This document shows, one piece after another, positions 2,558-46,986 of a stretch of DNA of 49,621 nucleotides (position 1 is its first letter; the number at the start of each line of letters is the position of its first letter). The translations under genes were made by a program, and so were the position numbers. Source of the DNA: Candidatus Nanopelagicales bacterium (GTDB lineage: Bacteria; Actinomycetota; Actinomycetes; S36-B12; GCA-2699445); the NCBI GenBank assembly GCA_030700225.1, contig JAUYJT010000064.1, positions 1 through 49,621 of the forward strand, given 5' to 3'. Below the pieces are notes generated by a model, which saw only the letters and a list, made by a program, of their open reading frames with translations, was not told where the DNA came from and made no database searches.

Positions 2558-3750
2558 GGCCGCCTGACTCCCAGGAGGTGATTCACGGCGAGCTGATTCA
2601 GCTTGACGTATCCACTGCCCTTGACAGCGGCGGCGTCCGCGTCGAAGTCCTCGAACGCGGACTTATCGGCCCGGAAGTCGGCGATGCTCTCGCCTTCGCT
2701 GAGAGTGGGCTCGGCGAGTCCTGACAGACCCGACTCCGCCAGGGCCTCGGCAACGGCCGGATCGGAGCGGAAGGCGAGCGCGCGCTCCTTCAGGAGTAGA
2801 TACGTCGTCATGTTGGCGGCAGCGGCCTCCCAAACGCCTGCCATGTCCTCAGTCCGCAGAGGCTTGAAGTCGAAGTGCCGCGACCCTTCGTATGCCGGTC
2901 CGCCTCCGATCGCGCCGTTCTCCAGCAGGTCAACGAGGAAGAAGGCGTTGATCAGGTCCCCGTGTCCGAACACTAGGTCCTGGTCGAAGCGGGGGCCGTG
3001 CTGGCCGTTGAGGTCAATGTGGAACAGCTTGCCGTGCCAGAGTGCCTGCGCCACGCCGTGAGCGACGTTGAGCCCCGCCATCTGCTCGTGACCGACCTCC
3101 GGGTTGACTCCCACCATGTCGGAATGCTCGAGGGTGTTGATGAAAGCCAGCGCGTGCCCGATCGTCGGCAGGAAGATGTCCCCACGCGGCTCGTTCGGCT
3201 TGGGCTCGACAGCGAACCGGATGTCGTAGCCGTTGTCGATGCAGTACTGGGCCAGTGTGTCCAGACCATCCCGGTACCGGTCCAGCGCGGTCCGCACGTC
3301 TTTGATGCCGTCTGTCTCGGCTCCCTCACGGCCTCCCCAGAAGACGTAGACTCCGGCGCCCAGTTCAGCCGCGAGGTCCAGGTTGCGCATGACCTTGCGC
3401 AGCGCGAATCGGCGAACTGAGCGGTCCGGGCTCGTGAATGCTCCGTCCTTGAATACAGGATGCGTGAACAGGTTCGTGGTCAACATCGGAACCGCGAGCC
3501 CCGTGTCAGCTATGGCCTGCTTGAAGTTGGCGATGATCCGGTCTCGGGTGGCGCCGTCGGACCCGAACGGGACCAAGTCATCGTCGTGGAAGTTGACCCC
3601 GTAGGTCCCCAGCTCGGCCAAGCGGTAGACGGACTCGACCGGATCCAGGGGCGGGCGCGTAGGTTCCCCGAAAGGGTCACGCGCTGGCCAGGCGACGGTC
3701 CACAGCCCGAACGTGAACTTGTCGGCGGGGGTTGGTTGGGGCAGATTCAT
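2554..3750 (-). CDS. xylA: xylose isomerase, actinobacterial class I
   Basis: A 398-residue TIM-barrel isomerase converting D-xylose to D-xylulose with two divalent metals. It carries the short class I layout typical of Streptomyces. Catalytic and metal ligands are visible: His55 and Asp58 (GVNFHDDD), Trp17 and Trp138 (FWGG), Glu182 and Lys184 ([11 protein letters not shown]), Glu218 and His221 (NPEVGH), Asp246, Asp256 and Asp258 (HIDLNG...RFDQDL). The ATG is preceded by AGGAGG about five bases upstream (3754-3763 on the minus strand). It heads the xylA-xylB-tesB operon, divergent from a TetR gene. No xylose transporter or ROK-type XylR is in the window. Confidence 0.95.
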
Positions 3751-3805: not shown

Positions 3806-3836
3806 CCACTGACTCGATGGCGACGCCGGTCAGTGG
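3806..3836. promoter_or_regulatory. inverted repeat between xylA and tetR, probable operator
   Basis: CCACTGAC (3806-3813) and GTCAGTGG (3829-3836) form a perfect 8-base inverted repeat with a 15-base spacer. It sits in the 112-base divergent gap, 14 bases upstream of the tetR -10 hexamer. The position fits an operator through which the TetR protein controls itself and perhaps xylA-xylB-tesB. Binding is inferred. Confidence 0.5.
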
Positions 3837-3850
3837 TAGTCGAGCGTTGG

Positions 3851-3856
3851 TACGAT
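3851..3856 (+). promoter_or_regulatory. -10 hexamer of tetR, leaderless start
   Basis: TACGAT fits the actinobacterial TAnnnT -10 consensus and ends six bases before the GTG at 3863. Transcription would begin at or next to the start codon, and no Shine-Dalgarno sequence is present. This supports GTG 3863 over the in-frame upstream ATG at 3833. Confidence 0.5.
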
Positions 3857-3862
3857 GCGAGC

Positions 3863-4507
3863 GTGAGCGCACCGGCACAGGCTCCCAGGGCTCGACTGAT
3901 CAAGGCGGCGGAGGACCACTTCCGGCGCTTCGGGTACAAGGGCACAACCGTCGATGACATCACGGGTGAGGCCGCGACCGGCAAGGGCAGCTTCTACTTG
4001 CACTTCGACTCCAAGGAGCAGGCCTACCTCGCCGTCGTCGAGGCATCGATGGAGCGATTCTTGGAGCGCGCCGCTGAAGCTCTGCGCGGCGAGGGAACGG
4101 CGCCGGAGCGCCTCCGGGCACTCGTCGCAGTGACCGCGGAGCACTACGGCGATGATGAGTTCCTTCGCTCATCGATGTTCGGCGGGGGCAAACTCGTGGA
4201 CGGTGAGGTCGCGCGACGCGCCGCCGAGATTCAGCGAGGACGAATCCGCGGCCTGCTCGGCGAGACGCTCGCGGGTGGCCAGTCCGAGGGAACGATCCGA
4301 GCCGAACTCGATGTTGACGCCACCGCCGCGATCCTCTTCGAAGTCGGCTGGGCCGTGGTGCGGACCGAGTTGGAGGGAGCCTCTCAGATCTCGCTCGGCG
4401 CGGCGCTCGATGCGCTCAACGACATGATCGGACTCGGTCTGCAGCCGCGCGAGACCCCAGGGGACGTCAAGCCCGCTTCCCGTCGACGCTTCCTGGGCAG
4501 GGCGTAA
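3863..4507 (+). CDS. TetR/AcrR family transcriptional regulator
   Basis: A 214-residue one-component repressor. The N-terminal TetR helix-turn-helix covers about residues 8-55 (ARLIKAAEDHF, then TVDDITGEAATGKGSFYLHF and SKEQAYLAVVE). The C-terminal half is a variable helical ligand domain. The GTG at 3863 is chosen because a -10 hexamer lies six bases upstream and the fold starts right after it; an ATG at 3833 would add ten residues that overlap the promoter. It is divergent from xylA with a perfect inverted repeat between them, so autoregulation plus control of the xyl/tesB operon is plausible. The ligand is unknown. Confidence 0.85.
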   Translation: MSAPAQAPRARLIKAAEDHFRRFGYKGTTVDDITGEAATGKGSFYLHFDSKEQAYLAVVEASMERFLERAAEALRGEGTAPERLRALVAVTAEHYGDDEFLRSSMFGGGKLVDGEVARRAAEIQRGRIRGLLGETLAGGQSEGTIRAELDVDATAAILFEVGWAVVRTELEGASQISLGAALDALNDMIGLGLQPRETPGDVKPASRRRFLGRA

Positions 4508-4560: not shown

Positions 4561-4708
4561 CGCGGAAACGGCCGTTCCCGCCAAACGCGCCTGTTTGGGT
4601 ACAGACGCGCCCGTTTCAACGAGTGTTTCCTTGCGGAACGGGTGCGTCTATCAGGAACGGCCGCAAACGCAGAACGGGCGTGCTGTTTGGCGCTCGAACC
4701 CGGTAGCC
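4561..4708. repeat. palindromic dispersed repeat, copy 1
   Basis: This stretch lies in the gap between tetR and the next gene. It is built of repeated and inverted motifs: aacggccgtt (4567-4576), caaacgcgcctgttt, gggtacagacgcgcccgttt (4597-4616), and inverted versions such as gcggaacgggtgcgtcta (4633-4650) and aacggccgc. The left part matches the last 70 bases of the window with few changes (copy 2, 49551-49621). It has no coding potential. It looks like an intergenic palindromic element (REP/MITE-like) able to fold into a branched hairpin. Confidence 0.6.
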
Positions 4709-4789
4709 ATTGCGGCAACGAGTGACCAGTAGGCTAGGCCAGTCAGTGTTCACCAAGGGTGGATCGGTGTGCAGGCGAGGAGGCGTGGC

Positions 4790-5566
4790 GTGGCGGACGA
4801 GGTGTTGCTCAGAGTGGAGGGCGACGTGGCCACGGTCACGCTCAACCGCCCCGAACGGCTGAACACGCTGGCCGTCGATACCGTCGACCTGCTGTGCGAC
4901 GCATTATCGCGAGTGGCGGCATCGGACGCCCGCGTAGTAGTTCTGGCGGGGACGGGACGTGTGTTCTGCGCCGGTGCCGACCAGGCTGAGATGGTCGAAC
5001 GGACAGCTGGGGACTGGGAGCCGATCGTCCGCAGGTACTTGGACCCGATCAGGGCAATAGTCGCCATGCCGCAGCCGGTCATCGCCGCGCTGCACGGAGA
5101 TGCCGTCGGAGGAGGGTTCGGCCTAGCGCTGGCGTGCGACATTCGAATCGCGGCGGCCGGGATACGGATGGGTGCGCCGTTCACGCGCCTCGGCCTCGCG
5201 GGGTGCGACATGTCGGCGGGCTGGTTCTTGCCCCGGTACGTCGGTCTGGGCAAGGCGACGGAGCTGATGCTGACTGGTCGGTTGATCGAGGCGGAGGAAG
5301 CCGCCGCGCTGGACCTGGTGCATGGTGTGGTTCCCGCCGAAGAACTTCAGGCTGAGGTTGACCAGTGGGCGCGGCGGTTCGCCGCTGGACCCCCGATCGC
5401 CCATCAGTGGACAAAGCGCGCGATCCATCGCTCCATCGGATCGGACATGGATGCTGAATTCGAGCTGGAGATTTTCGCGCAGGTGCAATGCCTCCAAAGC
5501 GCCGATCACCGCGAGGGAATCACGGCATTCCGGGAAAAGAGGCGTCCGGAGTTCCGAGGTGCCTGA
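4790..5566 (+). CDS. crotonase-fold enoyl-CoA hydratase/isomerase homologue lacking both catalytic Glu
   Basis: A 258-residue member of the enoyl-CoA hydratase/isomerase superfamily. The oxyanion-hole regions are clear (FCAGADQAEM near residue 60; GDAVGGGFGLALACD near 105-117). The two glutamates of classical crotonase (Glu144 and Glu164 in the rat enzyme) align here with Gly111 and Phe131, so ordinary hydration of enoyl-CoA is doubtful. It may act as an isomerase, hydrolase or lyase. The start is GTG 4790, with GAGGAGG six bases upstream; the GTG at 4769 lacks such a site. Its stop overlaps the next gene's start by eight bases, so it works with an acyl-CoA dehydrogenase. Confidence 0.85.
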   Translation: MADEVLLRVEGDVATVTLNRPERLNTLAVDTVDLLCDALSRVAASDARVVVLAGTGRVFCAGADQAEMVERTAGDWEPIVRRYLDPIRAIVAMPQPVIAALHGDAVGGGFGLALACDIRIAAAGIRMGAPFTRLGLAGCDMSAGWFLPRYVGLGKATELMLTGRLIEAEEAAALDLVHGVVPAEELQAEVDQWARRFAAGPPIAHQWTKRAIHRSIGSDMDAEFELEIFAQVQCLQSADHREGITAFREKRRPEFRGA

Positions 5567-6707
5567 CCTCACCGAAACCCAGGTGCGGTTCCGCGCGGAG
5601 GTGGCCCGATTCGCCGCCACGGAGATCGCGCCCCACGCGCAGGAGTGGGACGAGACGGGGGAGTTCCCGAAACATCTGTTCGGGAAGCTCGGGGAACTCG
5701 GCTGGCTCGGAGTCGGCCTGCCGCCCGAGGCCGGGGGATCGGGTGGCGGTGCGACTGATCGTTGCGTCCTGATCGAGGAGCTGGCTAGAGCATCGGCGGG
5801 TGTGGCGCTGGGGATCTACGTGCACTTCGCGCTCGCGGCATCGGCGATCGCCATCGTCGGATCCGGAGAGCTGGCCGAGAAGTACGTGCCCGCGATGCTC
5901 GCCGGCGAGGCGACCGGAGCCTGGGCATACGCCGAACCCGACTCAGGAGCAGACGTCACCCGGGTCCGACTCAGCGCGCGCGAAGACGGCGACCACTACG
6001 TATTGAACGGCAGCAAGCTATACATCACGAACGCCACGTTCGCTGACGTGCTCGTCGTCGTCGCACGCACCAGCGGTGAGCCCGGAAGCCTCAAAGGCAT
6101 TTCCGTGTTCGTTGTCCCGGGTGATTCCGCCGGGATGGAGCGCCGGCCGATGCGCAAGGTTGGGATGAGGGCCTCCGAGCTCGGCGAACTGCACTTCACC
6201 GACTGCCTTGTGCCCCGGGATCACCTCGTCGGGCAACCGGACAACGGATTTCGACAATGCCTGCCGGTGCTTTCCCAAGGCCGGGTATTCGGCGGAGCGC
6301 TGGCCGTTGGCTTGGGCAGCGCTGCGTTGGAACAGGCCGTGCGCCATGTGAGCACCCGAGAGCAGTTCGGCGGTCCGCTGACGGATCTACAGGGCGTCAG
6401 GTTCACGATCGCTGACATGGCGACGCGGCTGCGCGCCGCCCGTTCGCTCGTCTATTCCGCGGCGGCCAAGCTGGACTCGGGCCAGGCGTATGACGCCGAG
6501 GCCTCGATCGCGAAACTGTTCGCTTCCCAGACGACAACCTGGCTTGCCGAGCGGGCCATGCATTTGCACGGCGCCCAGGGGTTCATGATGGATTCCCCCG
6601 TCCAGCGCTTCTACCGCGACTGCAAGATCCTGGAGTACGGAGAGGGAGCAAACGAAGTCCAGCGCGAGATGATCTTCAAGTCCGTCGCGGGTGGCTTCAG
6701 GCCGTAG
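5559..6707 (+). CDS. acyl-CoA dehydrogenase (FadE type)
   Basis: A 382-residue FAD enzyme that introduces an alpha,beta double bond into an acyl-CoA thioester. All three ACAD regions are present: the N-terminal helical domain, the central beta domain with AYAEPDSGADVT and NGSKLYITNA, and the C-terminal helical domain with the flavin-contact string REQFGGPLTDLQG. The probable catalytic base is Glu362 in LEYGEGANEVQ, the orthodox C-terminal position. The GTG at 5559 is chosen because the domain begins directly after it and it overlaps the crotonase stop. The two form one transcription unit that runs convergently, with a 30-base gap, into the alcohol dehydrogenase of the large minus-strand operon. 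Confidence 0.92.
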   Translation: MPDLTETQVRFRAEVARFAATEIAPHAQEWDETGEFPKHLFGKLGELGWLGVGLPPEAGGSGGGATDRCVLIEELARASAGVALGIYVHFALAASAIAIVGSGELAEKYVPAMLAGEATGAWAYAEPDSGADVTRVRLSAREDGDHYVLNGSKLYITNATFADVLVVVARTSGEPGSLKGISVFVVPGDSAGMERRPMRKVGMRASELGELHFTDCLVPRDHLVGQPDNGFRQCLPVLSQGRVFGGALAVGLGSAALEQAVRHVSTREQFGGPLTDLQGVRFTIADMATRLRAARSLVYSAAAKLDSGQAYDAEASIAKLFASQTTTWLAERAMHLHGAQGFMMDSPVQRFYRDCKILEYGEGANEVQREMIFKSVAGGFRP

Positions 6708-6737: not shown

Positions 6738-7772
6738 TCACGGCTCGACTACGACGCGCACGACTCCGCCGTCCCGGCTGGCCAGATGCCGCAGGGCCTC
6801 ATCCGCGGCGCTGAGGGGATAGCGTGCCGAAACTGAGCCGCTGAGATCGAGCCTGCCCGCCGCGATCAGTGAGTACAGGTCGACGATGTCGGCTGGGTCC
6901 ATCCCGAACGAACCCATGACCTGCTGTTCGCGCCCGACGAACGCCGCCAGCGATGGGAGAGCCGGGCCTCCAGGGCCGACTCCGACCAGCACAGCTCGGC
7001 CCATCTTCCCCAACGAGCGCATAGCCTGTTCGGACGTCGCGGGCCTGCCGACGAACTCCAGCGCCAGATCCAAACCCCCGAACGCGCGCACCTCGCGGGG
7101 CACGTCGGTTTCACCCGGGTCCAGCGCGACGTCGGCTCCGAGTCGCAGCGCTCGATCGCGCGCATGCTCGTCGGGGTCAACAGCGACGATGCGCGCGGCA
7201 CCCATGAGTCGAGCGAGCATGATGGCGTGGGTTCCGAGTCCTCCGCAGCCAAACACGCCCACGGTCTCGCCGGCCCGCAATTGACCCCGGGTGCGCAGCG
7301 CGTGGAACGGAGTCGCCACGCCGTCGGTGACTACGGCCGCGACGGGGAAATCGATGACGTCGGGCAGCGGCACGAGGGTTCTCGCGGGCACGCTCACGAA
7401 TTCGGCCAGTGCGCCATCGCGGCTCATCCCGTAGACCTTGGAGTTGTCGCACAGCGATGGTCGGCCAGCGAGACAGAATCGGCACCTGCCGCACCAATCG
7501 GCGGGGAACATAGCGACGCGCTGCCCGACAGATAGGCCGTCCACGTCAGCGCCGAGCCGGGCGATGACACCCGCAGCCTCGTGCCCGAGCGTGATCGGCG
7601 TGCGCGCCACGGGGAGGTCACCGACGACGGCCAGATGAAGGTCCGTCCCGCACAAGCCGCACGCGCGAACAGCCACGAGGACCTCATCGCGCCCTGGAGT
7701 CGGCACCGGAACTCGCGTGATCGCCAACGGCTTCCCGGGCGCCACGAGCTGGGCCGCGAGCATAGTCGTCAT
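6738..7772 (-). CDS. zinc-dependent medium-chain alcohol dehydrogenase
   Basis: A 344-residue MDR-family dehydrogenase. Catalytic zinc ligands are Cys41 (CGLCGTDLH) and the His64-Glu65 pair (TLGHEAAG). The structural zinc site is complete, with Cys94, Cys97, Cys100 and Cys108. The Rossmann motif is GVFGCGGLG at about 172-180, and an acidic residue after the next strand (VAVDPDE) favours NAD over NADP. It is the last gene of the 12-gene operon; its ATG overlaps the TetR stop by four bases (7769-7772). It probably oxidises an alcohol or reduces an aldehyde or ketone made by the pathway. The substrate is not evident. Confidence 0.9.
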   Translation of the reverse strand: MTTMLAAQLVAPGKPLAITRVPVPTPGRDEVLVAVRACGLCGTDLHLAVVGDLPVARTPITLGHEAAGVIARLGADVDGLSVGQRVAMFPADWCGRCRFCLAGRPSLCDNSKVYGMSRDGALAEFVSVPARTLVPLPDVIDFPVAAVVTDGVATPFHALRTRGQLRAGETVGVFGCGGLGTHAIMLARLMGAARIVAVDPDEHARDRALRLGADVALDPGETDVPREVRAFGGLDLALEFVGRPATSEQAMRSLGKMGRAVLVGVGPGGPALPSLAAFVGREQQVMGSFGMDPADIVDLYSLIAAGRLDLSGSVSARYPLSAADEALRHLASRDGGVVRVVVEP

Positions 7773-8416
7773 CGGGCGGCTCCGCTGCCAGCGACGGCCT
7801 TGGCGGAGGCCAGCCCGTCGAGAAGCAGGTCCAGGGCTTCGCCCAGTTCGTGGTCACTCGGGTGCGCCGGGGCGCCGAGGTTCACCCGCGAGTCATGCAG
7901 CACGCCCAGACCAACGAAGGTGGCCCACAGAACGTCCACAGCGACCCGAGCCAGTCTCTCGTCTGCCTTGTCCATGAGTTCGGCGACGCGGCGGAAGTTG
8001 TCGCCCGAGCGCCGTGCCAGTTCCGCCTTGACTTCAGGGGACACTCCGGTCGTCGCGTCGGGATTGGCCAGCGAAGTGAAGACGTGGAAGTACTCGGGGT
8101 ACTGGGAGCGCAGTTCGGAGAACATGCTCCACAGTTCCCGCACGAGCTGCGCGGGCGGCCTTGGCTCACCCGCCCCGGCCAGGGCCGCGATTCGCGACTC
8201 CATGAATTCGATCGCCTCGAACAGCAGCGAACTGAAGATCTCCTCCTTGCTTTGGAAGTACCAGAACAGCGTCGCCTCCGACAACTCGCAGTGCGCCGCG
8301 ATCTCCTTGGTCGTCGTGCCGTTGTACCCGTGTTGCCGGACTAGCGTGCGCGTGGCGTCCAGGACGGCCTTGCGCCTGGCGTCACGTTCACGCTGACGGC
8401 GTTCCTGAACTCCCAT
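7769..8416 (-). CDS. TetR/AcrR family regulator inside the catabolic operon
   Basis: A 215-residue repressor. The N-terminal helix-turn-helix is clear at about residues 9-55 (TTTKEIAAHCELSEATLFWYF, SKEEIFSSLLFEAI). The start ATG at 8416 has AGGAG five bases upstream; a GTG two codons earlier (8422) would overlap that site. The gene overlaps the 3' end of the hotdog gene by 29 bases and the alcohol dehydrogenase start by four, so it is co-transcribed with the pathway it probably controls. The best operator candidate is the TGAGTAATACTCA palindrome in the operon promoter at 16234-16246. Its ligand is probably an acyl-CoA intermediate, by analogy with other degradation-cluster TetR proteins. Confidence 0.87.
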   Translation of the reverse strand: MGVQERRQRERDARRKAVLDATRTLVRQHGYNGTTTKEIAAHCELSEATLFWYFQSKEEIFSSLLFEAIEFMESRIAALAGAGEPRPPAQLVRELWSMFSELRSQYPEYFHVFTSLANPDATTGVSPEVKAELARRSGDNFRRVAELMDKADERLARVAVDVLWATFVGLGVLHDSRVNLGAPAHPSDHELGEALDLLLDGLASAKAVAGSGAAR

Positions 8417-8810
8417 TGGCACTCCTCATCGCGTACGAGAACGTTGCTTCGAGCACGGCTAGTCCATCTTCGTCCGTGACTTTAGCCTCGACGGTCGCGT
8501 CCGTGCCCGCGACGGAGGTGACTGTCGCCGTGGCATGGACTTCACCGGTCGCGCGTCGCGGATACCGGATCTGGACGTCCCGGACAAGGACAATGATGGC
8601 CGGATCCGATCTGATACACCACGCTGCCACACCGGCGGCCGTCTCGGCCGCGCAGTACAGAGCGGACGCGTGCAGGCCACCGGCGATGTTGGCATTCCCC
8701 GGGTCGTCGGGCATTCGGACGCGGACCTGGGGGCCGACGTGCTCGATGACCAGGCCATGGCTGCGAACATACGGGATGCCGTCGAGCATCTCCTGCAGCG
8801 TGTTCCGCAT
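8388..8810 (-). CDS. PaaI/DUF4442-type hotdog thioesterase
   Basis: A 140-residue single-hotdog protein. The core helix and strand pattern GGLHASALYCAAETAAGVAAW (residues 45-65) and the following IRYPRRATGEVHATATV strand resemble DUF4442/PaaI-like acyl-CoA thioesterases, which release CoA from dead-end or product thioesters. It starts three bases after the amidohydrolase stop and overlaps the TetR gene by 29 bases. Family membership is fairly clear; the substrate is unknown. Confidence 0.78.
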   Translation of the reverse strand: MRNTLQEMLDGIPYVRSHGLVIEHVGPQVRVRMPDDPGNANIAGGLHASALYCAAETAAGVAAWCIRSDPAIIVLVRDVQIRYPRRATGEVHATATVTSVAGTDATVEAKVTDEDGLAVLEATFSYAMRSANGSSGTPSA

Positions 8811-8813
8811 AGG

Positions 8814-9668
8814 TCAGCTAGTGAGCCGGAAGGCGCGCAGCGCGTTGTCGCGGACGACCTTGGTGTAGATGGTCTCTCCCAGCCCCAGGTCCTCCAGCTC
8901 TGAGAGAGTCCGGTCGAACGACAGCAGTGGATAGTCCGTCGCCCACAGCACCTTGTCCTGGCCCCAACCACGCACGAACTCGGTGAACGACGCCGGCCAG
9001 TGCTTCGGAGTGCGCGCGGACGTCTCGACGTAGACGTTGGGGTGTTTCCAGGCGAGCGTCATCATCTCGTCGTGCCAGGGCTGGCCCAGATGGCAGCCGA
9101 TGATGGTCAGATCCGGGAAGGCCAGGGCGACCTCATCGAGATAGATCGGACGCCCGCATTCTGATGGCAGTAGCGGACCGGTGTGCCCGACCTGGATGCA
9201 CACCGGAACCCCAAGTTCGGCGCACTTCAGATACACCGGCCAGTAGTGCTTGTCGTTGGGGGCCATGCCCGTCATGCCGTCGCCGTACATGTACGGCTCG
9301 AGCCGGATCGCGCGCATCCCCAGCTCGGTGATCAGGTACTCGACTTCGCGGCCGACGTCCAGGGGCTTGCGCAGGACGTTCACCGTGCCCGACCCGACGA
9401 ACCTGTCGGGGAACTTCGCGACGGCTTCGGCGACCTCCTCGTTGGAAACCACGGCCGTGTCCTTGTGGTAGAAGGCGGACAGCAGGCAGCGGTCCACTCC
9501 GGCGTTATCCATATCGGCCAGGACGTCTTCGATGGGCATGCCTTCGAAGATCGTCTGAGGTGAGCGGTACTTGCGGAAGATGTGCAGGTACTCCGTTGGC
9601 CAGCGGGTGGCCCCCTCCGGGCTGATCCAGCTCGCCCAGGCGTCAATGGCGATGCGGTCGCGGGTCAT
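8814..9668 (-). CDS. amidohydrolase-2 family protein lacking the HxH metal motif
   Basis: A 284-residue TIM-barrel protein of the amidohydrolase-2 family, which includes ACMSD-type decarboxylases, gamma-resorcylate decarboxylase and C-C hydrolases. Later metal or active-site residues are recognisable: His162 (QVGHTG), His193 (GCHLGQPWH) and Asp245 (WATDYP). At the N-terminus the usual DxHxH is replaced by Asp9-Ala-Trp11-Ala-Ser13, so two metal ligands are missing. Either metal binding differs or catalysis is metal-free. The ATG 9668 has AAGGAG upstream and overlaps the BKACE stop by four bases; a longer open frame upstream lies inside BKACE and is rejected. The reaction may be a decarboxylation or C-C hydrolysis. 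Confidence 0.82.
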   Translation of the reverse strand: MTRDRIAIDAWASWISPEGATRWPTEYLHIFRKYRSPQTIFEGMPIEDVLADMDNAGVDRCLLSAFYHKDTAVVSNEEVAEAVAKFPDRFVGSGTVNVLRKPLDVGREVEYLITELGMRAIRLEPYMYGDGMTGMAPNDKHYWPVYLKCAELGVPVCIQVGHTGPLLPSECGRPIYLDEVALAFPDLTIIGCHLGQPWHDEMMTLAWKHPNVYVETSARTPKHWPASFTEFVRGWGQDKVLWATDYPLLSFDRTLSELEDLGLGETIYTKVVRDNALRAFRLTS

Positions 9669-10543
9669 CTCGTTCTCCTTGTCTTGAAGGTTTCGCGGGC
9701 TTCTTGTGGACTTGCGGGACTGACGCCGAGTTCGCTCAGGATCCGAACGGCCTTGTCGACCAGCTCGGCGTTGGAGCTCGCCAGCTTGCCGGGCTCGAGG
9801 TAGATGTTGTCCTCCAGGCCGACGCGCACGTGGCCGCCCATCGCGACTATCGCCCCGAGCATTCGGAAGTGGTTGCGGGCGCCGATCGCGCTGACTAGCC
9901 AGTTGGTCCCGGGGGGCAGGCTCTCGGTGAGGAACGCCAGGTTTCTCACGGTGGCCTGCGTGCATTCGCCGGGGATGCCCATCACGAAGTTGACGAGCAG
10001 TGGTTCGGCCAGCACCCCCCGGCCTAGCAGGGCGTGGATGTTGTTCAGCATCCCTGAGTGATAGACCTCAAGCTCCGGTTTGACTTCCGCTTGGGCGAAT
10101 GTCCGGGCGACGGCTTCGAGTTCGGCGTGCGAGCTGAACAGGGGCACGAAGCGGTCACCGACCCAAGAGTTCGTTCGCTCATCCCAGCGGCCGAGCAGAC
10201 AGCCACCGCCAACGCTGAAGGACGCGATGTCGGGTCTCAACTCGGGTACGACCCGGGTGCGTTCGGCTGCCGGTAGGCCCGCGACTGCGCCGCCGGTTGT
10301 CAGGTTCAGCAGGGCGTCACACCCGGCTGACCGCAGCCCGTCGACGATCCGCGCGAACAGGCCGACATCAGCGCAGGCCCGGCCGTCGGCGTCGCGGGCG
10401 TGGATGTGCAGCACTGCCGCACCCGCCCTCCAAGCGGCCAAGCCTTGAGCCACGATCTCGTCCGGCTGCTCGGGCAAGTTCGGATTGGAGTCCTTGCCCT
10501 GCTGGGCGCCGGTCAGAGCACAGGTGATGATCGTCTTGCTCAT
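9665..10543 (-). CDS. BKACE (beta-keto acid cleavage enzyme, DUF849)
   Basis: A 292-residue TIM-barrel zinc enzyme. BKACE proteins condense a beta-keto acid with acetyl-CoA and cleave it to acetoacetate plus a new acyl-CoA, as first shown for 3-keto-5-aminohexanoate. Zinc ligands His46 and His48 (VLHIHARD) and Glu244 (RVGLEDN) are present, with the N-terminal ITCALTGAQ strand and the GKLASSN loop typical of the family. It is embedded in the 12-gene operon with four-base overlaps on both sides. Its presence implies that the pathway passes through a free beta-keto acid. Which keto acid cannot be read from sequence. Confidence 0.9.
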   Translation of the reverse strand: MSKTIITCALTGAQQGKDSNPNLPEQPDEIVAQGLAAWRAGAAVLHIHARDADGRACADVGLFARIVDGLRSAGCDALLNLTTGGAVAGLPAAERTRVVPELRPDIASFSVGGGCLLGRWDERTNSWVGDRFVPLFSSHAELEAVARTFAQAEVKPELEVYHSGMLNNIHALLGRGVLAEPLLVNFVMGIPGECTQATVRNLAFLTESLPPGTNWLVSAIGARNHFRMLGAIVAMGGHVRVGLEDNIYLEPGKLASSNAELVDKAVRILSELGVSPASPQEARETFKTRRTR

Positions 10544-11334
10544 TGGCCTGTGAACCTGGCTGGTCGCTTCTCGATGAAGGCCCGCATGCCCTCCTTCTGA
10601 TCGCGGCTGGAGAAGTTCAACATGACAGTGTTGATCGAGAAGTCGATCGCGGTCTCAAGATCGGTCGTCATCCACTTGTTGATGATCTCCTTCTGCGTGG
10701 CTAGCGCCAGGGGACTCTTCTCACCGAGGCGTTCGCACAGTGCGGTGACGCTGGACGCCAGTTCGGCGGGCTTCAGCACCGAGTGGAGAAGGCCGCGACG
10801 CTCGGCCTTCGCCGCGTCCCAGAGTTCGCCGAGGTATGCCATCTCCCGTGCTCCCTGGATGCCGATGGCGCCCGGGAGGATGGCCGCTTCTACGATCGCC
10901 GGGATTCCCCGATGGATGTTTGGTAGCCCGAACCGCGATCGGTCACTGGCGACCATTAAGTCGCACGACAGCGCGAACTCCAGACCGGCACCAAGGCACA
11001 GTCCATCGATCTGGCACACGATCGGGATCTCCGTCGTGCGCAGTGCTAGGAACGTGCGGTGCAACTCCCGGCCGATCTCGCGCGCCTGCGGTCCCTCCAT
11101 CTCCTTGACGTATGCCACGTCGATGCCTGCGGAGAAGGCGCGCTGCCCGGCGTGATCCACGAGAATGACTCGCGTCTGAGCGTCAGCTTGGGCGAAGGCC
11201 AGGGCGTCGCGCACTTCGCGAAGCAGACGTGCGTCGATGGCGTTGAGCACCTCTGGCCGATTCAGGGTCAGCCGAAGAATGGCGTCTTGTCTCGCAAGGG
11301 CGATCGTGTCGAGCTTCGGCATCCTACTTGCCAT
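10540..11334 (-). CDS. enoyl-CoA hydratase/isomerase family protein (one Glu replaced)
   Basis: A 264-residue crotonase-fold protein. Oxyanion-hole motifs are FSAGIDVAYV and IDGLCLGAGLEFALSCD. The first catalytic glutamate is present (GAGLE), but the residue matching rat Glu164 is Asn (GLPNIHRG), so isomerase, hydrolase or retro-aldol chemistry is as likely as hydration. The start is taken at ATG 11334, with GGGAGG nine bases upstream; ATG 11322, one base after the previous stop, is the alternative and would remove four residues. The stop overlaps the BKACE start by four bases. Confidence 0.85.
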   Translation of the reverse strand: MASRMPKLDTIALARQDAILRLTLNRPEVLNAIDARLLREVRDALAFAQADAQTRVILVDHAGQRAFSAGIDVAYVKEMEGPQAREIGRELHRTFLALRTTEIPIVCQIDGLCLGAGLEFALSCDLMVASDRSRFGLPNIHRGIPAIVEAAILPGAIGIQGAREMAYLGELWDAAKAERRGLLHSVLKPAELASSVTALCERLGEKSPLALATQKEIINKWMTTDLETAIDFSINTVMLNFSSRDQKEGMRAFIEKRPARFTGQ

Positions 11335-12115
11335 GGAATCGGGCCTCCCGTTTCTCGATGAACGCGCGTATGCCCTCCTGGGCGTCGGCGCTTGCCCTGA
11401 CCGGCTCGGCGTAGAATTGCTCGAGGCGCAGCGCGTCGCCGAGGGGAAGATGCGCTCCGTTGAGGACCGAGGCGCGGATCGCCCGAACGGCAAGCGGTGC
11501 GTTGGACGCGATCCGCTGGGCCAGATCCATCGCCGCGCCGAGTAAGTCGGCGGAAGGCACAACCCGGTTCACCAGTCCGAGCCGAAGTGCCTTGGCGGCG
11601 TCGATCGGAGCGCCGGTCAGGAGCATCTCCAGCGCCATGGCGGGATGGGTCATCCGTGGCAGCCGCTGGGTTCCCCCGGCGCCCGGGATTATCCCGCGGC
11701 GAACTTCGGGCAGTCCGAAAGTGGCGTGCTCCGCGGCGATGCGCAGATCGCAGGCAAGTGCGACCTCGAAACCGCCTGCCAGGCAGTGGCCGTTGACCGC
11801 TGCGATCACCGGCTTGCCAACGTCGAGGTTGCGGGTGATGCCACCCAGTCCGGGTTCGTGTTCACCTCGGTCCCGGCGTTCAGTCGGCGTCATGGACGCG
11901 TAGTGGGCCCCCATTTCCTTCAGGTCAGCTCCAGCGCAGAACGCCTGTTCACCGGCGCCGGTGATAACGGCGGCTCGCAGATCCGGGTCATCCCGGAGCC
12001 GGGTCCACGCCTCGCAGAGCTCGCGACTCATCGCCCGATTCAGGGCATTCCTGGCCTCGGGGCGGTCGATCGTCACGACCAGCACGGCGTCGTCGGTCTG
12101 GGTGCGAATAGTCAC
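11324..12115 (-). CDS. enoyl-CoA hydratase (both catalytic Glu present)
   Basis: A 263-residue crotonase that most likely hydrates a trans-2-enoyl-CoA to the 3-hydroxyacyl-CoA. Both glutamates of the rat enzyme are found with the right 20-residue spacing (LAGGFE and FGLPE), and the string IIPGAGGTQRLPR matches mitochondrial-type hydratases closely. The GTG start overlaps the upstream DUF35 stop (GTGA, 12112-12115). Of the three crotonases in the window it is the only one with orthodox catalytic residues, so it is the best candidate for the hydration step after the operon's acyl-CoA dehydrogenase. Confidence 0.92.
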   Translation of the reverse strand: MTIRTQTDDAVLVVTIDRPEARNALNRAMSRELCEAWTRLRDDPDLRAAVITGAGEQAFCAGADLKEMGAHYASMTPTERRDRGEHEPGLGGITRNLDVGKPVIAAVNGHCLAGGFEVALACDLRIAAEHATFGLPEVRRGIIPGAGGTQRLPRMTHPAMALEMLLTGAPIDAAKALRLGLVNRVVPSADLLGAAMDLAQRIASNAPLAVRAIRASVLNGAHLPLGDALRLEQFYAEPVRASADAQEGIRAFIEKREARFHGK

Positions 12116-12486
12116 GCGATCACCTCGAAGCCTTCAAGCTCCCCGTTGGCGAAGCGTGGGCGGACGCGGGCCCCGATCTCGGCCTGACCGAGGAGTCGGT
12201 GAAGCATCGCCGTGTCCGCGCCGTCAAGCCGGACAAGGGCATACCGACCCCGGTGCGATACGTCTGTCCACGATGCGATCTGGCCGTTCGGGCCGACGTC
12301 CGGTGCCTCGTCCGCCGGTGAGCCGCAGAAGGGGCACAGCGAGCGGGCGGGGCTGAGCACTTTCAAGCACGACGCGCAAGACGTGGCGCTGAACCGTCGC
12401 TCATCGCGCAGGGCTGTCAGATACGCGCTGCCTACACGGCCAGCCGCGTACCGGAACGGCAGGTTGATCGCTTCCGACTTGATCAT
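12112..12486 (-). CDS. DUF35 zinc-ribbon/OB-fold protein, copy 2
   Basis: A 124-residue protein with an N-terminal rubredoxin-like zinc ribbon (Cys37, Cys40, Cys51, Cys54) and a C-terminal OB-fold (IASWTDVSHRGRYALVRLDG). DUF35 proteins bind thiolase-family partners and position CoA thioesters, as in the ChsH2 C-terminal domain with Ltp2, BbsA with BbsB, and the archaeal HMG-CoA synthase complex. It overlaps the neighbours on both sides by four bases and follows a second DUF35 gene, suggesting one DUF35 subunit for each of the two thiolase-fold proteins upstream. Confidence 0.87.
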   Translation of the reverse strand: MIKSEAINLPFRYAAGRVGSAYLTALRDERRFSATSCASCLKVLSPARSLCPFCGSPADEAPDVGPNGQIASWTDVSHRGRYALVRLDGADTAMLHRLLGQAEIGARVRPRFANGELEGFEVIA

Positions 12487-12932
12487 CCGATCACCTCGAA
12501 GTGGGAGATGTCGTGCATCGCGCCTACCAGCTCATCGCGCCAAACCGCCCGCAAGCGGGTGCCCAGAGCCAACTCGTCCGCGATCGTCACGAAGTGGTTC
12601 AGCGTCGTGTCAGCGCCGTCGAGGCGGATCAGTCCCATGCCGCACGGCACCGGCCGCGCTTCGCCGGTGCGGCTGTCCAGGACGGGAATGTGAAGCACGG
12701 TCCACGCGACAAGTTGCCCGGTGTCGGCGACTGGCACCCAGCGGCTCATCCGCATGTAGCACCGGCCGCAGAACGGACGCGGCGGTAGGTATCGGCGGCC
12801 GCACGCGTCACATGCCAGTGCTTCGATCCGTCGTTCGCGCAATCCGCCGAGGAAGCGGGCCATCGGTTCACTCGCGGCGTAGCGCCAAGTGATGTCCATC
12901 GTCAGCGGCACGGTGACTAGATCGCCGGTCAT
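12483..12932 (-). CDS. DUF35 zinc-ribbon/OB-fold protein, copy 1
   Basis: A 149-residue DUF35 protein with zinc ribbon Cys41, Cys44, Cys55, Cys58 (ACDACG...FCGRC) and an OB-fold (LVAWTVLHIP...GLIRLDGADTTL). It is longer than copy 2 and has an extra N-terminal helix (EPMARFLGGLRERR). The start ATG 12932 overlaps the thiolase stop by four bases; a longer upstream frame is a shadow of that gene. It probably forms a complex with one of the thiolase-fold proteins encoded immediately upstream. Confidence 0.87.
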   Translation of the reverse strand: MTGDLVTVPLTMDITWRYAASEPMARFLGGLRERRIEALACDACGRRYLPPRPFCGRCYMRMSRWVPVADTGQLVAWTVLHIPVLDSRTGEARPVPCGMGLIRLDGADTTLNHFVTIADELALGTRLRAVWRDELVGAMHDISHFEVIG

Positions 12933-14083
12933 GGCCGCCCCCCCAGGACGATCGCGTCGGCCCAGGCATACACGCCGTATCCGGTCGCCAGGGCTGTCTT
13001 CGCGTTTGGGACCTGCCGGTCGCCGCCTCGCCCGTGGATCTGCAAAGCGGCCTCGGCGACGCGGATCACTCCCGACGCCCCGACAGGATTGGTCGACAGG
13101 ACGCCGCCGGAGGGGTTGACCGGCAGCTCGCCGTCCATGTCGGTGATCCCCTTGTCGATCAGCGACCCCGCCTCGCCGTCGTCGCAGAACCCGAGTGCCT
13201 CGTACCACGCCAGCTCGGCGTATGTGACCGGCTCGTAGATCTCGGCCACGTCCAGGTCCCGGCGGGGATCCCGTATCCCGGCGCGGGCGTATGCGGCTTT
13301 GGCCGCGTCGCGCAGCGTCGGCATAGTCAGCAAGCGGCGGTCCAGGTCACCGATGTAGCACTGGTCGTGTCGCGTGACGGCTGACCTGACCCAGGCGGGC
13401 TGGGGATTGTGCCGATCGGCGAGGTCCTGCGAGGCGACGACGATCGCGGCTGCTCCGTCGGATTGGGGGCACATGTCCAGAAGGTGCAACGGGTGCGCCA
13501 GAACCCTCGAATCCAGGACTTGGTCAACGGTGAGGTCCGGGAGTTGCAGATGCGCGTGGGGATTGCGGGCGGCGTTGTGCCTGGCCTTGACAGCGACCTT
13601 CGCGGCCTGCTCCTGTGTCACTCCGCGCTCTGCCACGTACTGCGATATCGACAGCGCGAAGTTACCCACGGCTCCCGAGGCGACGGCCCGGTCCCAGAAG
13701 GGGTCGGTCAGCGCCATCCCCGTCTGAGTGTGGCCTTCGGAGTGCTTCTCGACCCCCACGACAAGCACCGAGTCGAACAGTCCGGATGCCACCTGATTGA
13801 AGGCGGCGATGCAGGCGCTTGTGCCGGATGTGCCCCCGGTCGCGATCTTCAGGCATGGCTTGCCGTAGGCGAACGCCCCGGCGCCTAGCCACATTTCCGG
13901 CATTGCCCGGCCTTCGAACAGCTCCATGTTCGAGATCAGCACCGCGTCGATGTCGGACGGTGACATGTCGGCGTCCATCAGGGCGGCGGTAACCGCCTCG
14001 TGCACGAGCTCGGGCTGAGACACGTCATCCCGGCGGCTGGCGTGGTTGGTCTGGCCGGTGCCAATCACGGCGACGGGCCTCAT
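12929..14083 (-). CDS. SCP2/thiolase-fold protein, Ltp2-like, without thiolase catalytic residues
   Basis: A 384-residue thiolase-superfamily protein. The N-terminal strand VAVIGTGQT and the C-terminal NPSGG...NPVGASG region are typical of the lipid-transfer-protein branch. The nucleophilic Cys of Claisen thiolases aligns with Gly84 (ATGGTSGTSA), the HPxGATG His is Asn332, and the C-terminal CxG is replaced by GYGVYAWAD. It is therefore unlikely to be a thiolase. Ltp2-type retro-aldolases, which use tyrosines and need a DUF35 partner, are the closest known precedent; Tyr283, Tyr288, Tyr294 and Tyr369/372 are candidates. Its position next to two DUF35 genes supports an aldolase that splits a 3-hydroxyacyl-CoA. 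Confidence 0.83.
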   Translation of the reverse strand: MRPVAVIGTGQTNHASRRDDVSQPELVHEAVTAALMDADMSPSDIDAVLISNMELFEGRAMPEMWLGAGAFAYGKPCLKIATGGTSGTSACIAAFNQVASGLFDSVLVVGVEKHSEGHTQTGMALTDPFWDRAVASGAVGNFALSISQYVAERGVTQEQAAKVAVKARHNAARNPHAHLQLPDLTVDQVLDSRVLAHPLHLLDMCPQSDGAAAIVVASQDLADRHNPQPAWVRSAVTRHDQCYIGDLDRRLLTMPTLRDAAKAAYARAGIRDPRRDLDVAEIYEPVTYAELAWYEALGFCDDGEAGSLIDKGITDMDGELPVNPSGGVLSTNPVGASGVIRVAEAALQIHGRGGDRQVPNAKTALATGYGVYAWADAIVLGGRP

Positions 14084-15054
14084 GCGGCGCGCTCCAGAAC
14101 CGCGACGGCGTGAGCTTGTCCGGCTGGCCCCCATGTGCCGTGGGCGAGAGCCCTGCCGGGAGCGGCTCGAAGTGCTCGGGTGGCCGCGACCAGTTGCCCC
14201 AGCCCGGCGGCGACGGGGGCTGCCCCGGCGAACAGGCCGCCGGTCGGCGCGAGGCCAGTGGCTGTCCGGAACAGCTCCTCCTCATGCGGGAAGCGGCACG
14301 AGTCAGCCACGACGTCGAAGGCGCCGTTGCCGTGACCGCCAGCGCGTTTGAACGCCCGTCTGAGCCCCGGCCATGAGCGCAAGTCGCGGTCGCCGGGAGC
14401 ATGTGCGTCGAGGTCGAATCCGACTGACTTGACCGTGACTCCGGGCTGGTTCGCGCGCAGCACGACCGCGAAGGCGGCGTCCGCGTCGGGTGCTTTCATG
14501 AGCGCTCGCAGCGGCGCGGCGCTGATCGGCGAATCCAGCACGTCGGTGATGTCGCACCCGCGCAGCTCGGCCGCTCGCCGCGCCCAGCGCCGCTCGGCTC
14601 CCTCGGTGGCAAGGAGCTGAGCCTGGAGCCCGGAACAGACCATGAAGCTGGCGCCCAGTGGTTGCAGGAGAACCGGGTCCATGACCCATTCGCTGAGAAG
14701 ATCCTGCGGTGCCATCGACGCCTTGCCGTGTGCGACGACCAGAACTGTGTCGTACGCGCCTGCCCAAACCAGGCAGGCCGCGTGGGCCAGGGCGGCGAGT
14801 CCGTCCCCGGCGATACGGGTCTCTGGCTTCATCACCGCGCCGACGACCTCGGTGATCGCGATGTTCGACGCGGTCAGGCCGTCATACAGGTCCACCGAGG
14901 CGGATACGACGGCGTCGATGTCGGCGAATCCGATTCCGGCGTCACCGATGGCGTCTTCTACGGCAGTCAGAACCATCTCCGGGATCGAGCGCGGATCCTG
15001 TGCGACCGGCCCCGAGGCGCCCAGGCCGACGATGCCCGCCAAAGGTCTTGTCAC
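14080..15054 (-). CDS. short degenerate thiolase-fold protein (probable partner subunit)
   Basis: A 324-residue protein with the thiolase N-terminal pattern (GIVGLGASG, IDAVVSASVDLYDG, DTVLVVAHGK) but about 60 residues shorter than its neighbour. No nucleophilic Cys (IAGDGLAALAHA), no HPxGATG histidine (FAGAAPVAAG) and no C-terminal CxG are visible, so catalytic activity is doubtful. It is probably a structural or regulatory partner of the full-length thiolase-fold protein. The GTG start overlaps the acyl-CoA dehydrogenase stop (GTGA, 15051-15054), and its stop overlaps the next start (ATGA). The frame is open throughout, so it is not a pseudogene. Confidence 0.78.
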   Translation of the reverse strand: MTRPLAGIVGLGASGPVAQDPRSIPEMVLTAVEDAIGDAGIGFADIDAVVSASVDLYDGLTASNIAITEVVGAVMKPETRIAGDGLAALAHAACLVWAGAYDTVLVVAHGKASMAPQDLLSEWVMDPVLLQPLGASFMVCSGLQAQLLATEGAERRWARRAAELRGCDITDVLDSPISAAPLRALMKAPDADAAFAVVLRANQPGVTVKSVGFDLDAHAPGDRDLRSWPGLRRAFKRAGGHGNGAFDVVADSCRFPHEEELFRTATGLAPTGGLFAGAAPVAAGLGQLVAATRALRAAPGRALAHGTWGPAGQAHAVAVLERAA

Positions 15055-16196
15055 GGCGTTAGGCCCTTGGTGGCGGCGATGATCTCGCGCATGACTTCGC
15101 TGGTGCCAGCCCCGATGGAGAACGCGCTTGAGTCGCGGTGGAGGCGTGCGATGAGTTGTTCCTCCATGAACGCGTTGCCGCCGAAGATCTGCGCGCAGTC
15201 GTGCGCGACGCCCACACAGGTTTCGGCGGCGAACAGCTTGGCCATTGAGATCTCGGCGTTCGCCGCGTCGCCGCGCACATGCATGTCGATCGCCCGGTAG
15301 GTGAGCGCCTCGGCCGCTTCGATCTTGGTGAGCGCGTCGGCCAGGCGGTGACGCCAGACCTGAAATCCGAGCAGCGGGTGTCCGAATGCCTGGCGCTGCA
15401 GTCCGTACTCGCGCGCCTCGTCGAACATCAGGCGCATCTGAGCACAGGCGATGATCGCCAGGACGAGACGTTCGCCCTCGAACCCGCTCATGATGTATTG
15501 GAATCCGCGGTTCTCCTCGCCGATGAGGTTGGCCACCGGCACATGACAGTCCTGGAAGAACAGTTCCGCGGTGTCCGACGACGGCACGCCGATCTTGCGA
15601 AGCCTGCGGCCGACCTTGAGGCCAGGGGTGTCGCTGGGCACGATGATCAGGGAGATCCCTCGGGGTCCGGGTTCACCGGTTCTCACCGCGAGAGTGACGT
15701 AGTCGGCGATCGTGCCGTTTGTGATGAAGATCTTGGAGCCGTTGATCACGTACTCGTCGCCCACGCGGACCGCTCGGGTGCGGATCGCCCCCACGTCGCT
15801 GCCGGCTTCGGGTTCAGTGATCCCAAGCGCCCCGACCAACGAGCCGGAGACCGCTGGCCGCACGAAGCGATTCTTCAGGTCATCCGACCCAACACGGTCG
15901 ATCACTTTCGTCGCGAATTCCGCGTGGACCATGACGCTGACTGCCACGCCCACAGAGCCGCAGCGAACGAGTTCCTGGACCAGGACCGTCGTGAACCTGA
16001 AGTCGCACCCGCCGCCCCCGCACTCCTCAGAGATGCGAACGCCCAGGTAGCCGAGTTCGCCAAGCTGATTGAACAGTGCCCGGGGGACTTGGCCGGATTT
16101 CTCCCAGGCAGTCACGTTCGGCGTGATCTCGCTGTCCACGAACGCCCGGACTGCCGAGCGGAACCTCTCATGGTCCTCGCTGAAGCCGCCACCCAT
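15051..16196 (-). CDS. acyl-CoA dehydrogenase with relocated catalytic base
   Basis: A 381-residue FAD-dependent dehydrogenase, first gene of the 12-gene operon. Domain marks are LGITEPEAGSDV, INGSKIFITNG and FGHPLLGFQ. The usual C-terminal base (GEGTSE) is replaced by Ala363 (IGAGTSEV). A glutamate at 242 in GFEGERLVLA matches the isovaleryl-CoA dehydrogenase position (LERLVLA), suggesting the base sits there, as in enzymes for branched or bulky acyl chains. The ATG is preceded by GGAGG and by a clear promoter at 16226-16254. It probably catalyses the entry dehydrogenation of the pathway. Confidence 0.92.
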   Translation of the reverse strand: MGGGFSEDHERFRSAVRAFVDSEITPNVTAWEKSGQVPRALFNQLGELGYLGVRISEECGGGGCDFRFTTVLVQELVRCGSVGVAVSVMVHAEFATKVIDRVGSDDLKNRFVRPAVSGSLVGALGITEPEAGSDVGAIRTRAVRVGDEYVINGSKIFITNGTIADYVTLAVRTGEPGPRGISLIIVPSDTPGLKVGRRLRKIGVPSSDTAELFFQDCHVPVANLIGEENRGFQYIMSGFEGERLVLAIIACAQMRLMFDEAREYGLQRQAFGHPLLGFQVWRHRLADALTKIEAAEALTYRAIDMHVRGDAANAEISMAKLFAAETCVGVAHDCAQIFGGNAFMEEQLIARLHRDSSAFSIGAGTSEVMREIIAATKGLTP

Positions 16197-16225: not shown

Positions 16226-16254
16226 ACGGTAGTTGAGTAATACTCAGGCGTCAA
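16226..16254 (-). promoter_or_regulatory. promoter of the 12-gene operon with operator palindrome
   Basis: On the minus strand TTGACG (16249-16254), a 17-base spacer and TACCGT (16226-16231) make a good sigma-70-type promoter. A perfect palindrome, TGAGTAATACTCA (16234-16246), fills most of the spacer, the classical place for a repressor. On the plus strand the same palindrome overlaps a possible -10 (TAATAC/AATACT), with TTGTTC at 16217-16222 as a possible -35 for the HAD gene. One repressor could thus control both directions; the operon's own TetR is the natural candidate. Confidence 0.65.
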
Positions 16255-16282
16255 GTAACGCTCGGGACAAGTTCCGGGGGCA

Positions 16283-46985: not shown

Positions 46986-46986
46986 C

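Follow-up and report, generated by a model that had tools for sequence, protein, structure and literature searches.

A putative catabolic operon for beta-branched acyl-CoA combining an Ltp3/Ltp4-type aldolase with a beta-keto acid cleavage enzyme in a Candidatus Nanopelagicales bacterium

The window analysed here is a stretch of 49,621 nucleotides from a Candidatus Nanopelagicales bacterium, comprising one entire contig (JAUYJT010000064.1) of the 2.6 Mb, 95.7% complete host assembly GCA_030700225.1. ORF (open reading frame) calling on the window identified twelve ORFs, all on the minus strand and tightly packed from 16196 to 6738, in the order FadE1, Thl1, Thl2, DUF35a, DUF35b, ECH1, ECH2, BKACE (beta-keto acid cleavage enzyme), AMH (an amidohydrolase-family protein), a hotdog thioesterase, TetR and ADH (alcohol dehydrogenase). 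We see about an even chance that these genes form a catabolic operon which has its own regulator, has spread horizontally and degrades a beta-branched (3-substituted) acyl-CoA through the five-step scheme set out below. Gene names were backed by Pfam/NCBIfam scans (for Thl1 by NCBIfam only, with no Pfam match), and the junctions between genes are exactly -4 in eight of eleven cases, with the other three being +1 (ECH1-ECH2), +3 (AMH-hotdog) and -29 (hotdog-TetR): thus, the twelve-gene set, the eight 4-base overlaps and the spacing of the rest within 30 bases, all claimed in a preliminary description of this DNA, were recovered in full.

From the gene content, linkage and conserved residues, all of which are directly observed, we infer the reactions and their order as follows. 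FadE1 would dehydrogenate a 3-branched, glutaryl-type acyl-CoA (step 1), with hydration by ECH1 yielding a tertiary 3-hydroxyacyl-CoA (step 2). Thl1, Thl2, DUF35a and DUF35b, acting together as a heteromeric aldol-lyase like Ltp3/Ltp4, would then release acetyl-CoA and a free beta-keto acid in a cleavage that we liken to that of HMG-CoA lyase (step 3), and BKACE would turn this beta-keto acid and acetyl-CoA into a shortened acyl-CoA and acetoacetate (step 4); as BKACE would consume both aldolase products, no ATP would be spent on re-activation of the acid. Finally, acetoacetate would be activated by an acetoacetyl-CoA synthetase whose gene lies outside the operon, in another part of the genome (step 5). 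ADH, ECH2, AMH and the nearby FadE2/ECH3 pair may make or open a branched, probably alicyclic precursor, which is our guess, whilst TetR would control the whole unit via a conserved tandem operator. The conserved residues described below support the logic of the preliminary description (dehydrogenation, hydration, retro-aldol cleavage and handling of a keto acid) at the level of predicted reactions. There are precedents for the central cleavage: in the route for C24-branched sterols the Ltp3-Ltp4 aldol-lyase is described as freeing acetyl- or propionyl-CoA together with a carboxylate that needs thioesterification (PMC6678751, PMC3546705), and for limonene a split of the tertiary alcohol 3-hydroxy-3-isopropenylglutaryl-CoA has been proposed (PMC12583861).

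An alignment scan with Thl2 over 84,980 species genomes returned 29 loci, of which L079 was taken as the locus of genome G204 and L074 as that of G049. The gene counts cover 31 distinct loci, one of them the window, and many are cut off by contig ends: Thl2 30, DUF35a 30, DUF35b 29, ECH2 28, BKACE 27, ECH1 26, AMH 26, FadE1 25, Thl1 25, ECH3 20, FadE2 20, ADH 19, TetR 15 and hotdog 9. The set recurs in ~28 further loci from six or seven phyla by title, and because the same genes are found together there, the packing of the twelve genes lies far beyond chance; this recurrence also supports the earlier view that the set is inherited together. By submitter title the carriers belong to Actinomycetota, Pseudomonadota, Thermodesulfobacteriota, delta-proteobacterial/Myxococcota lineages, Chloroflexota, Nitrospirota and Rokubacteria. 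The 29 scan loci stem from metagenome-assembled genomes throughout, and binning errors could inflate the list; no cultured carrier was found at at least 60% identity in the plasmid collection, or by title among the 29 scan loci. An Acidobacteria carrier was not counted, since L074 was taken as contig G049:C11 from a genome placed in the phylum of the window; the 64,882-base contig of L074 (JACQXY010000008.1) is titled Acidobacteria, and this submitter's label is probably wrong. BKACE identity between loci falls to 45%, and a different gene order is seen in Chloroflexota (L076, L078, L084), in Nitrospirota (L088) and in loci of the Desulfobacterota type (L085, L087, L090), a rearrangement that argues against the linkage being merely the product of recent transfer. 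On the Thl2 tree the 8 phylum-level groups require 11 label changes, where 7 would be the minimum, and Chloroflexota form one clade, a pattern that suggests transfers without being proof of them. Closer to the host, only four of 166 genomes of the order have a Thl2 match at E<=1e-60, and of these, besides the host, one (G033, 78% over a fragment) has module genes on a short contig. Among 396 genomes sampled from the phylum, only the host, G049, G204 and G370 have a close Thl2 protein, and the last three of these carry the whole gene set in their loci; these four genomes are exactly those with the top AMH orthologues, as the co-occurrence envisaged in the preliminary description would have it, and no close AMH orthologue was found in 39 relatives of the same family or order. 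The operon is genuine and conserved, and probably laterally mobile.

The candidate aldolase is Thl2 (12929..14083, minus strand), an Ltp3-like thiolase-fold protein by family scans. In all 30 loci it lacks the CxS nucleophilic Cys and the HDCF and GHP motifs of catalytic thiolases: the nucleophile is replaced by Gly84 (TGGTSG), Tyr283 occupies the HDCF/YDHF motif position as Y283-E-P, and Asn332 (N332-P) is likewise invariant. The combination of Gly in place of Cys and a Tyr base in the (Y/H)D(H/C)F motif is that of Ltp/Sal-type aldolases, where the Tyr in this motif position serves as base and Sal also has Gly for Cys (PMC12329534). As to the second acid residue of these aldolases (Cys304 in Sal, Tyr344 in Ltp2), in alignment to 6esq/4yzo only, Pro285 lies at the Sal position and Asn332 near the Ltp2 position; a Streptomyces Ltp3-type protein is 44% identical to Thl2 and has the YEP motif in common with it. 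Thl1 (14080..15054, minus) appears to be a degenerate, Ltp4-like thiolase-fold partner, matching NCBIfam PRK07937 at 6.6e-29, with an AlphaFold model (pLDDT 76.6) that matches the fold of PDB thiolases (E 5e-16) and 29-32% identity to mycobacterial and Streptomyces Ltp4-type proteins. The two DUF35 proteins, DUF35a (12483..12932, minus; zf-ChsH2 plus OB_ChsH2_C) and DUF35b (12112..12486, minus; zf-ChsH2/OB_ChsH2_C), were assigned through Pfam, and the four zinc-ribbon Cys are retained in 30/30 loci for DUF35a, as are four Cys in 28/28 for DUF35b. Two unequal thiolase-fold genes adjoin two DUF35 units in the window and in most loci, as in the Ltp3/Ltp4 heteromer. Judged by sequence, Thl1, Thl2 and the two DUF35 proteins correspond to Ltp4, Ltp3 and the two-domain Rv3521-type protein of mycobacteria and Streptomyces, and aldol-lyase activity is predicted for them. 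A 469-aa ORF in L046 (5193-6602) has two DUF35 domains that, by eye, flank a GNAT acetyltransferase-like segment.

Upstream of this cleavage in the scheme stand FadE1 (15051..16196, minus) and ECH1 (11324..12115, minus). In isovaleryl-CoA dehydrogenase (IVD) and long-chain acyl-CoA dehydrogenase (LCAD) the catalytic Glu sits on helix G and not at the loop position, and FadE1, an acyl-CoA dehydrogenase by Pfam with isovaleryl-CoA dehydrogenase among its PDB matches, shows this arrangement: Glu242 of helix G is present in 25/25 loci, with Ala363 at the loop Glu site in 23/25. As an enzyme of the IVD/LCAD type FadE1 would therefore suit a 3-branched substrate. ECH1 retains both catalytic Glu residues (E137 and E163) in 26/26 loci and resembles EchA19/DpgD in NCBIfam and PDB comparisons, as expected of a canonical enoyl-CoA hydratase.

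Enzymes of the BKACE family convert a free beta-keto acid and acetyl-CoA into an acyl-CoA and acetoacetate. The window protein (9665..10543, minus) has the PF05853 fold (1.5e-84) together with the Zn ligands, conserved Arg and Glu base of the family: H46, H48, R240, E244 and D245 are found in 27/27 loci and E157/E159 in 26/26. For comparison, the Zn ligands of Kce are His46, His48 and Glu230. The Glu base of BKACE15 is E171 (PMC11961710). Against the named NCBIfam BKACE equivalogs, the window protein scores below every cut-off. An acetoacetyl-CoA synthetase is present in the host genome (817 bits vs a cut-off of 521; above cut-off in 0/14 controls), but no PF01144 CoA-transferase was matched in this 95.7% complete genome; the synthetase is in line with the prediction of the scheme that acetoacetate has to be activated.

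Both a MaoC hydratase and a CoA ligase are absent locally, as the preliminary description had stated; for the ligase this holds in the window, but sister loci supply CaiB/BaiF (L048, L071, L075), FadD (L083, L084, L091) or a PF01144 CoA-transferase (L076, L078). The host itself yielded no clear orthologue of any of these: for the module-linked FadD the best identity is 28-36%, and the single CaiB-family gene is only 31% identical to that of L071. Transporters of the liv, TRAP or Bug type (named by eye) flank several loci and therefore indicate a soluble organic acid. A GMC oxidoreductase and a small membrane protein without Pfam match adjoin the module in one actinomycete and two Chloroflexota (L047 14177-16525, L076 3294-5653, L078 3383-5724), a pair that may indicate that the substrate derives from an alcohol.

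In the region 5' of FadE1 a perfect palindrome, TGAGTAATACTCA, lies at 16234-16246 within a tandem pair TGAGTNNNACTCA-N5-TGAGTNNNACTCA (16/20 positions in the window) that overlaps a TTGACG -35; the whole element (16234..16264, minus) covers the -35 of FadE1 and the spacer between -35 and -10. In ~17 other loci the tandem pair, again repeating at 18 bases, outscores all other matches in the locus and lies just 5' of the first operon gene, scoring 20/20 in Chloroflexota L084, 18/20 in L083 and 17/20 in L070, L071 and L075-L078, with best scores of 11-15, mostly 12-13, in simulated 20-kb sequences. The sequence of this element is directly observed; its role as operator of the operon TetR (7769..8416, minus; a family-scan assignment, 37-76% identity in 15 loci), and with it co-regulation of the whole unit, is predicted. 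Its position over the -35 fits the single promoter assumed in the preliminary description. A consensus promoter scan found nothing upstream of FadE1, because the candidate -10 (TACCGT) matches only 3/6.

That description ended the operon at 6738, whereas the unit extends further, to ECH3, FadE2 and probably the second regulator TetR2. In the window ECH3 (4790..5566, plus) and FadE2 (5559..6707, plus) are convergent with the operon, but in L047, L069, L070, L072, L073, L074, L080 and L091 they are found inside it, and they belong to the module. FadE2 is an acyl-CoA dehydrogenase of the medium-/short-chain (MCAD/SCAD) catalytic type with Glu362, as judged by residue alignment over the loci. ECH3 has F131 where Glu144 is expected together with an invariant D140, and the crotonase ECH2 (10540..11322, minus; NCBIfam) has Asn135 in place of Glu144 and a new invariant E145: by these residues neither is an ordinary hydratase, ECH3 appearing isomerase-like and ECH2 being a candidate isomerase or C-C hydrolase. 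TetR2 (3833..4507, plus) is common to the Acidimicrobiia-type modules L048 and L083 and probably belongs to the module. A TGACC(A/G)G...CTGGTCA-type palindrome-like element, distinct from the tandem operator, lies in the window at 4660-4800, 5' of ECH3, and in L048 at 8600-8740, upstream of a FadE-AMH-ADH-ECH3-FadE2 operon; adjoining TetR2 homologues, it is a possible operator of TetR2. ADH (6738..7772, minus) is a zinc alcohol dehydrogenase (MDR) by family scans that keeps both catalytic and structural zinc Cys in 19/19 loci, and the hotdog thioesterase (8388..8810, minus; DUF4442/4HBT in Pfam), found in 9/31 loci, appears accessory.

AMH (8814..9668, minus) is an Amidohydro_2 protein by Pfam that carries D9-x-W11-x-S/T instead of the N-terminal HxH in 25/25 loci, and it thus departs from the metal-dependent amidohydrolases, although H162, H193, E201 and D245 are kept in the alignment of loci. 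Its model (pLDDT 85.9) is nearest in the PDB to the uncharacterised 3irs, followed by ACMSD-family decarboxylases, the hydratase LigJ and the C-C hydrolase LigY. Mycobacterial relatives of the Rv3510c type (L052, L056, L057, L058, L059) adjoin IlvX near Ltp3/Ltp4 and are also without HxH, with Asn in place of the barrel D245. The preliminary description knew of no cluster that has BKACE together with this unusual amidohydrolase; the amidohydrolase itself is not entirely new, as its relatives sit in the mycobacterial sterol region. A literature search on Rv3510c with amidohydrolase/KstR returned nothing relevant, with its role in the sterol region not described there. A phloroglucinol-type cyclohydrolase role for AMH was rejected, as the known enzyme is a "cyclase"-family protein and not an amidohydrolase.

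Several points weigh against the beta-branched acyl-CoA scheme. The free carboxylate next to the cleaved carbon of the aldolase substrate is deduced from the need of BKACE for its substrate, and with no biotin carboxylase near, the glutaryl-type precursor must come from elsewhere. Within Thl2, Asn332 apparently stands in place of the second catalytic Tyr of TcLtp2; Thl1 falls below the detection threshold in the Desulfobacterota-type loci L085, L087 and L090, and hence the composition of the heteromer may vary; and the scheme leaves ECH2, AMH and ADH unexplained. An alternative is an alicyclic acetic-acid route: FadE1, ECH1 and the aldolase would cleave a two-carbon arm off a ring, as in a cyclohexylacetyl-CoA, and leave a cyclic ketone, FadE2/ECH3, ADH and either ECH2 or AMH would open the ring hydrolytically, and BKACE would act late on a ring-derived beta-keto acid. 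The ADH, crotonases and FadE are broadly similar to the enzymes of the hydratase-ADH-ring-hydrolase series in benzoyl-CoA/cyclohexanecarboxylate degradation, with sub-cut-off NCBIfam matches to 6-hydroxycyclohexene-carbonyl-CoA and cyclohexane-carbonyl-CoA dehydrogenases, and LigY is among the structural neighbours of AMH. However, all proteins score below the cut-offs of ring-cleavage families, a simple cyclic 1,3-dione would on hydrolysis yield a delta-keto acid, which is no BKACE substrate, and the otherwise complete operon of L064 is without FadE2/ECH3; we consider this route unlikely, albeit the strongest of the alternatives.

Steroid or sterol side-chain catabolism proper, with the genes acting as an Ltp3/Ltp4-type module for C24-branched side chains, appears improbable to us. 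Among named proteins, those most closely related to Thl1, ECH1 and AMH do lie in the mycobacterial Rv3504-Rv3523 sterol region, where the AMH relatives adjoin IlvX, but identity to sterol-region proteins is only 27-45%, no PF01144 CoA-transferase and so no IpdAB was found in the host genome, there is no MaoC or ring-cleavage gene nearby, the biotin carboxylase that C28 carboxylation would require is missing, and the module also occurs in anaerobe-titled lineages. Assignment to sterol degradation was rejected as the main reading on account of the missing PF01144/IpdAB and the low identities: from the steroid side-chain logic of the preliminary description the Ltp/DUF35 likeness stands, whilst the canonical steroid pathway is not indicated. 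Least probable is a biosynthetic or detoxifying acyl-transfer complex in place of catabolism. Some DUF35-thiolase complexes are acyltransferases, PhlABC being one (PDB 5m3k matches), but Thl2 has no acyl-carrying Cys in 30/30 loci, two FadE proteins, hydratases and BKACE are degradative, and liv/TRAP-type uptake transporters, FadD or CaiB adjoin sister loci.

Several known systems resemble the operon in part. The Ltp3-Ltp4-Rv3521 sterol region (Rv3504-Rv3523) shares two unequal thiolase-fold subunits with two DUF35 units (one fused protein there), an EchA19-like hydratase, a FadE, a nearby amidohydrolase of the same HxH-less subfamily and a predicted free beta-keto acid product; it differs in having no BKACE, in its FadD19/P450/PE genes, in separate KstR control, in a known substrate (sterol) and in the Asn at the D245 position of its amidohydrolase. 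With the Ltp2-ChsH2(DUF35) and Sal-Shy steroid aldolases the operon has in common a thiolase fold without nucleophilic Cys, the Tyr at the HDCF position and a DUF35 partner, but it has no MaoC hydratase, its Thl2 motif is Y-E/D-P and not YDHF/YDCY, and there are four separate subunits. BKACE pathways (Kce of lysine fermentation, the triacetate:acetoacetate-lyase of phloroglucinol degradation, carnitine) share PF05853, Zn and catalytic residues and the acetoacetate co-product, whereas here BKACE is proposed to be fed by an aldolase. Finally, for the limonene lrc operon of a methanogenic enrichment, dehydrogenation and hydration of 3-isopropenylglutaryl-CoA to a tertiary alcohol that is then cleaved have been proposed, this cleavage being assigned to an HMG-CoA-synthase-superfamily protein; for lrc and the mrc genes of Castellaniella a BadI-type ring hydrolase is present, and the published passages on these genes mention neither BKACE nor amidohydrolase, for which reason identity with mrc/lrc was rejected. 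A literature search for the gene combination returned nothing relevant: the parts are of known kinds, and the coupling of aldolase and BKACE and its wide spread were not found in the literature searched.

Elsewhere in the window, an FGGY kinase and xylose-isomerase-like pair adjoining the module (1148-3750) are ordinary sugar genes. A pyridoxal-dependent decarboxylase, an FGGY kinase and a second Amidohydro_2 protein (29% identity to AMH) follow in succession at 45573-49498, downstream of smpB (named by eye), and are unrelated to the operon.

Branched and alicyclic acids of terpenoid, sterol and naphthenic origin are abundant, and the ways in which bacteria get past tertiary carbons in the absence of oxygen are understood only in part. 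Against this background, linkage of BKACE to an aldolase in ~25 loci provides a concrete, testable candidate for the re-thioesterification step. A tentative reading, which we hold at somewhat less than even chance, is that an oxygen-independent module couples a heteromeric Ltp3/Ltp4-type aldolase to BKACE, thereby passing a tertiary carbon without re-activation by ATP, and that, together with its own TetR operator, it has been passed between unrelated, uncultured aerobes and anaerobes for use of a common environmental branched or alicyclic acid. The module is usable for annotating many uncultured lineages, and the common putative operator would define its regulon.

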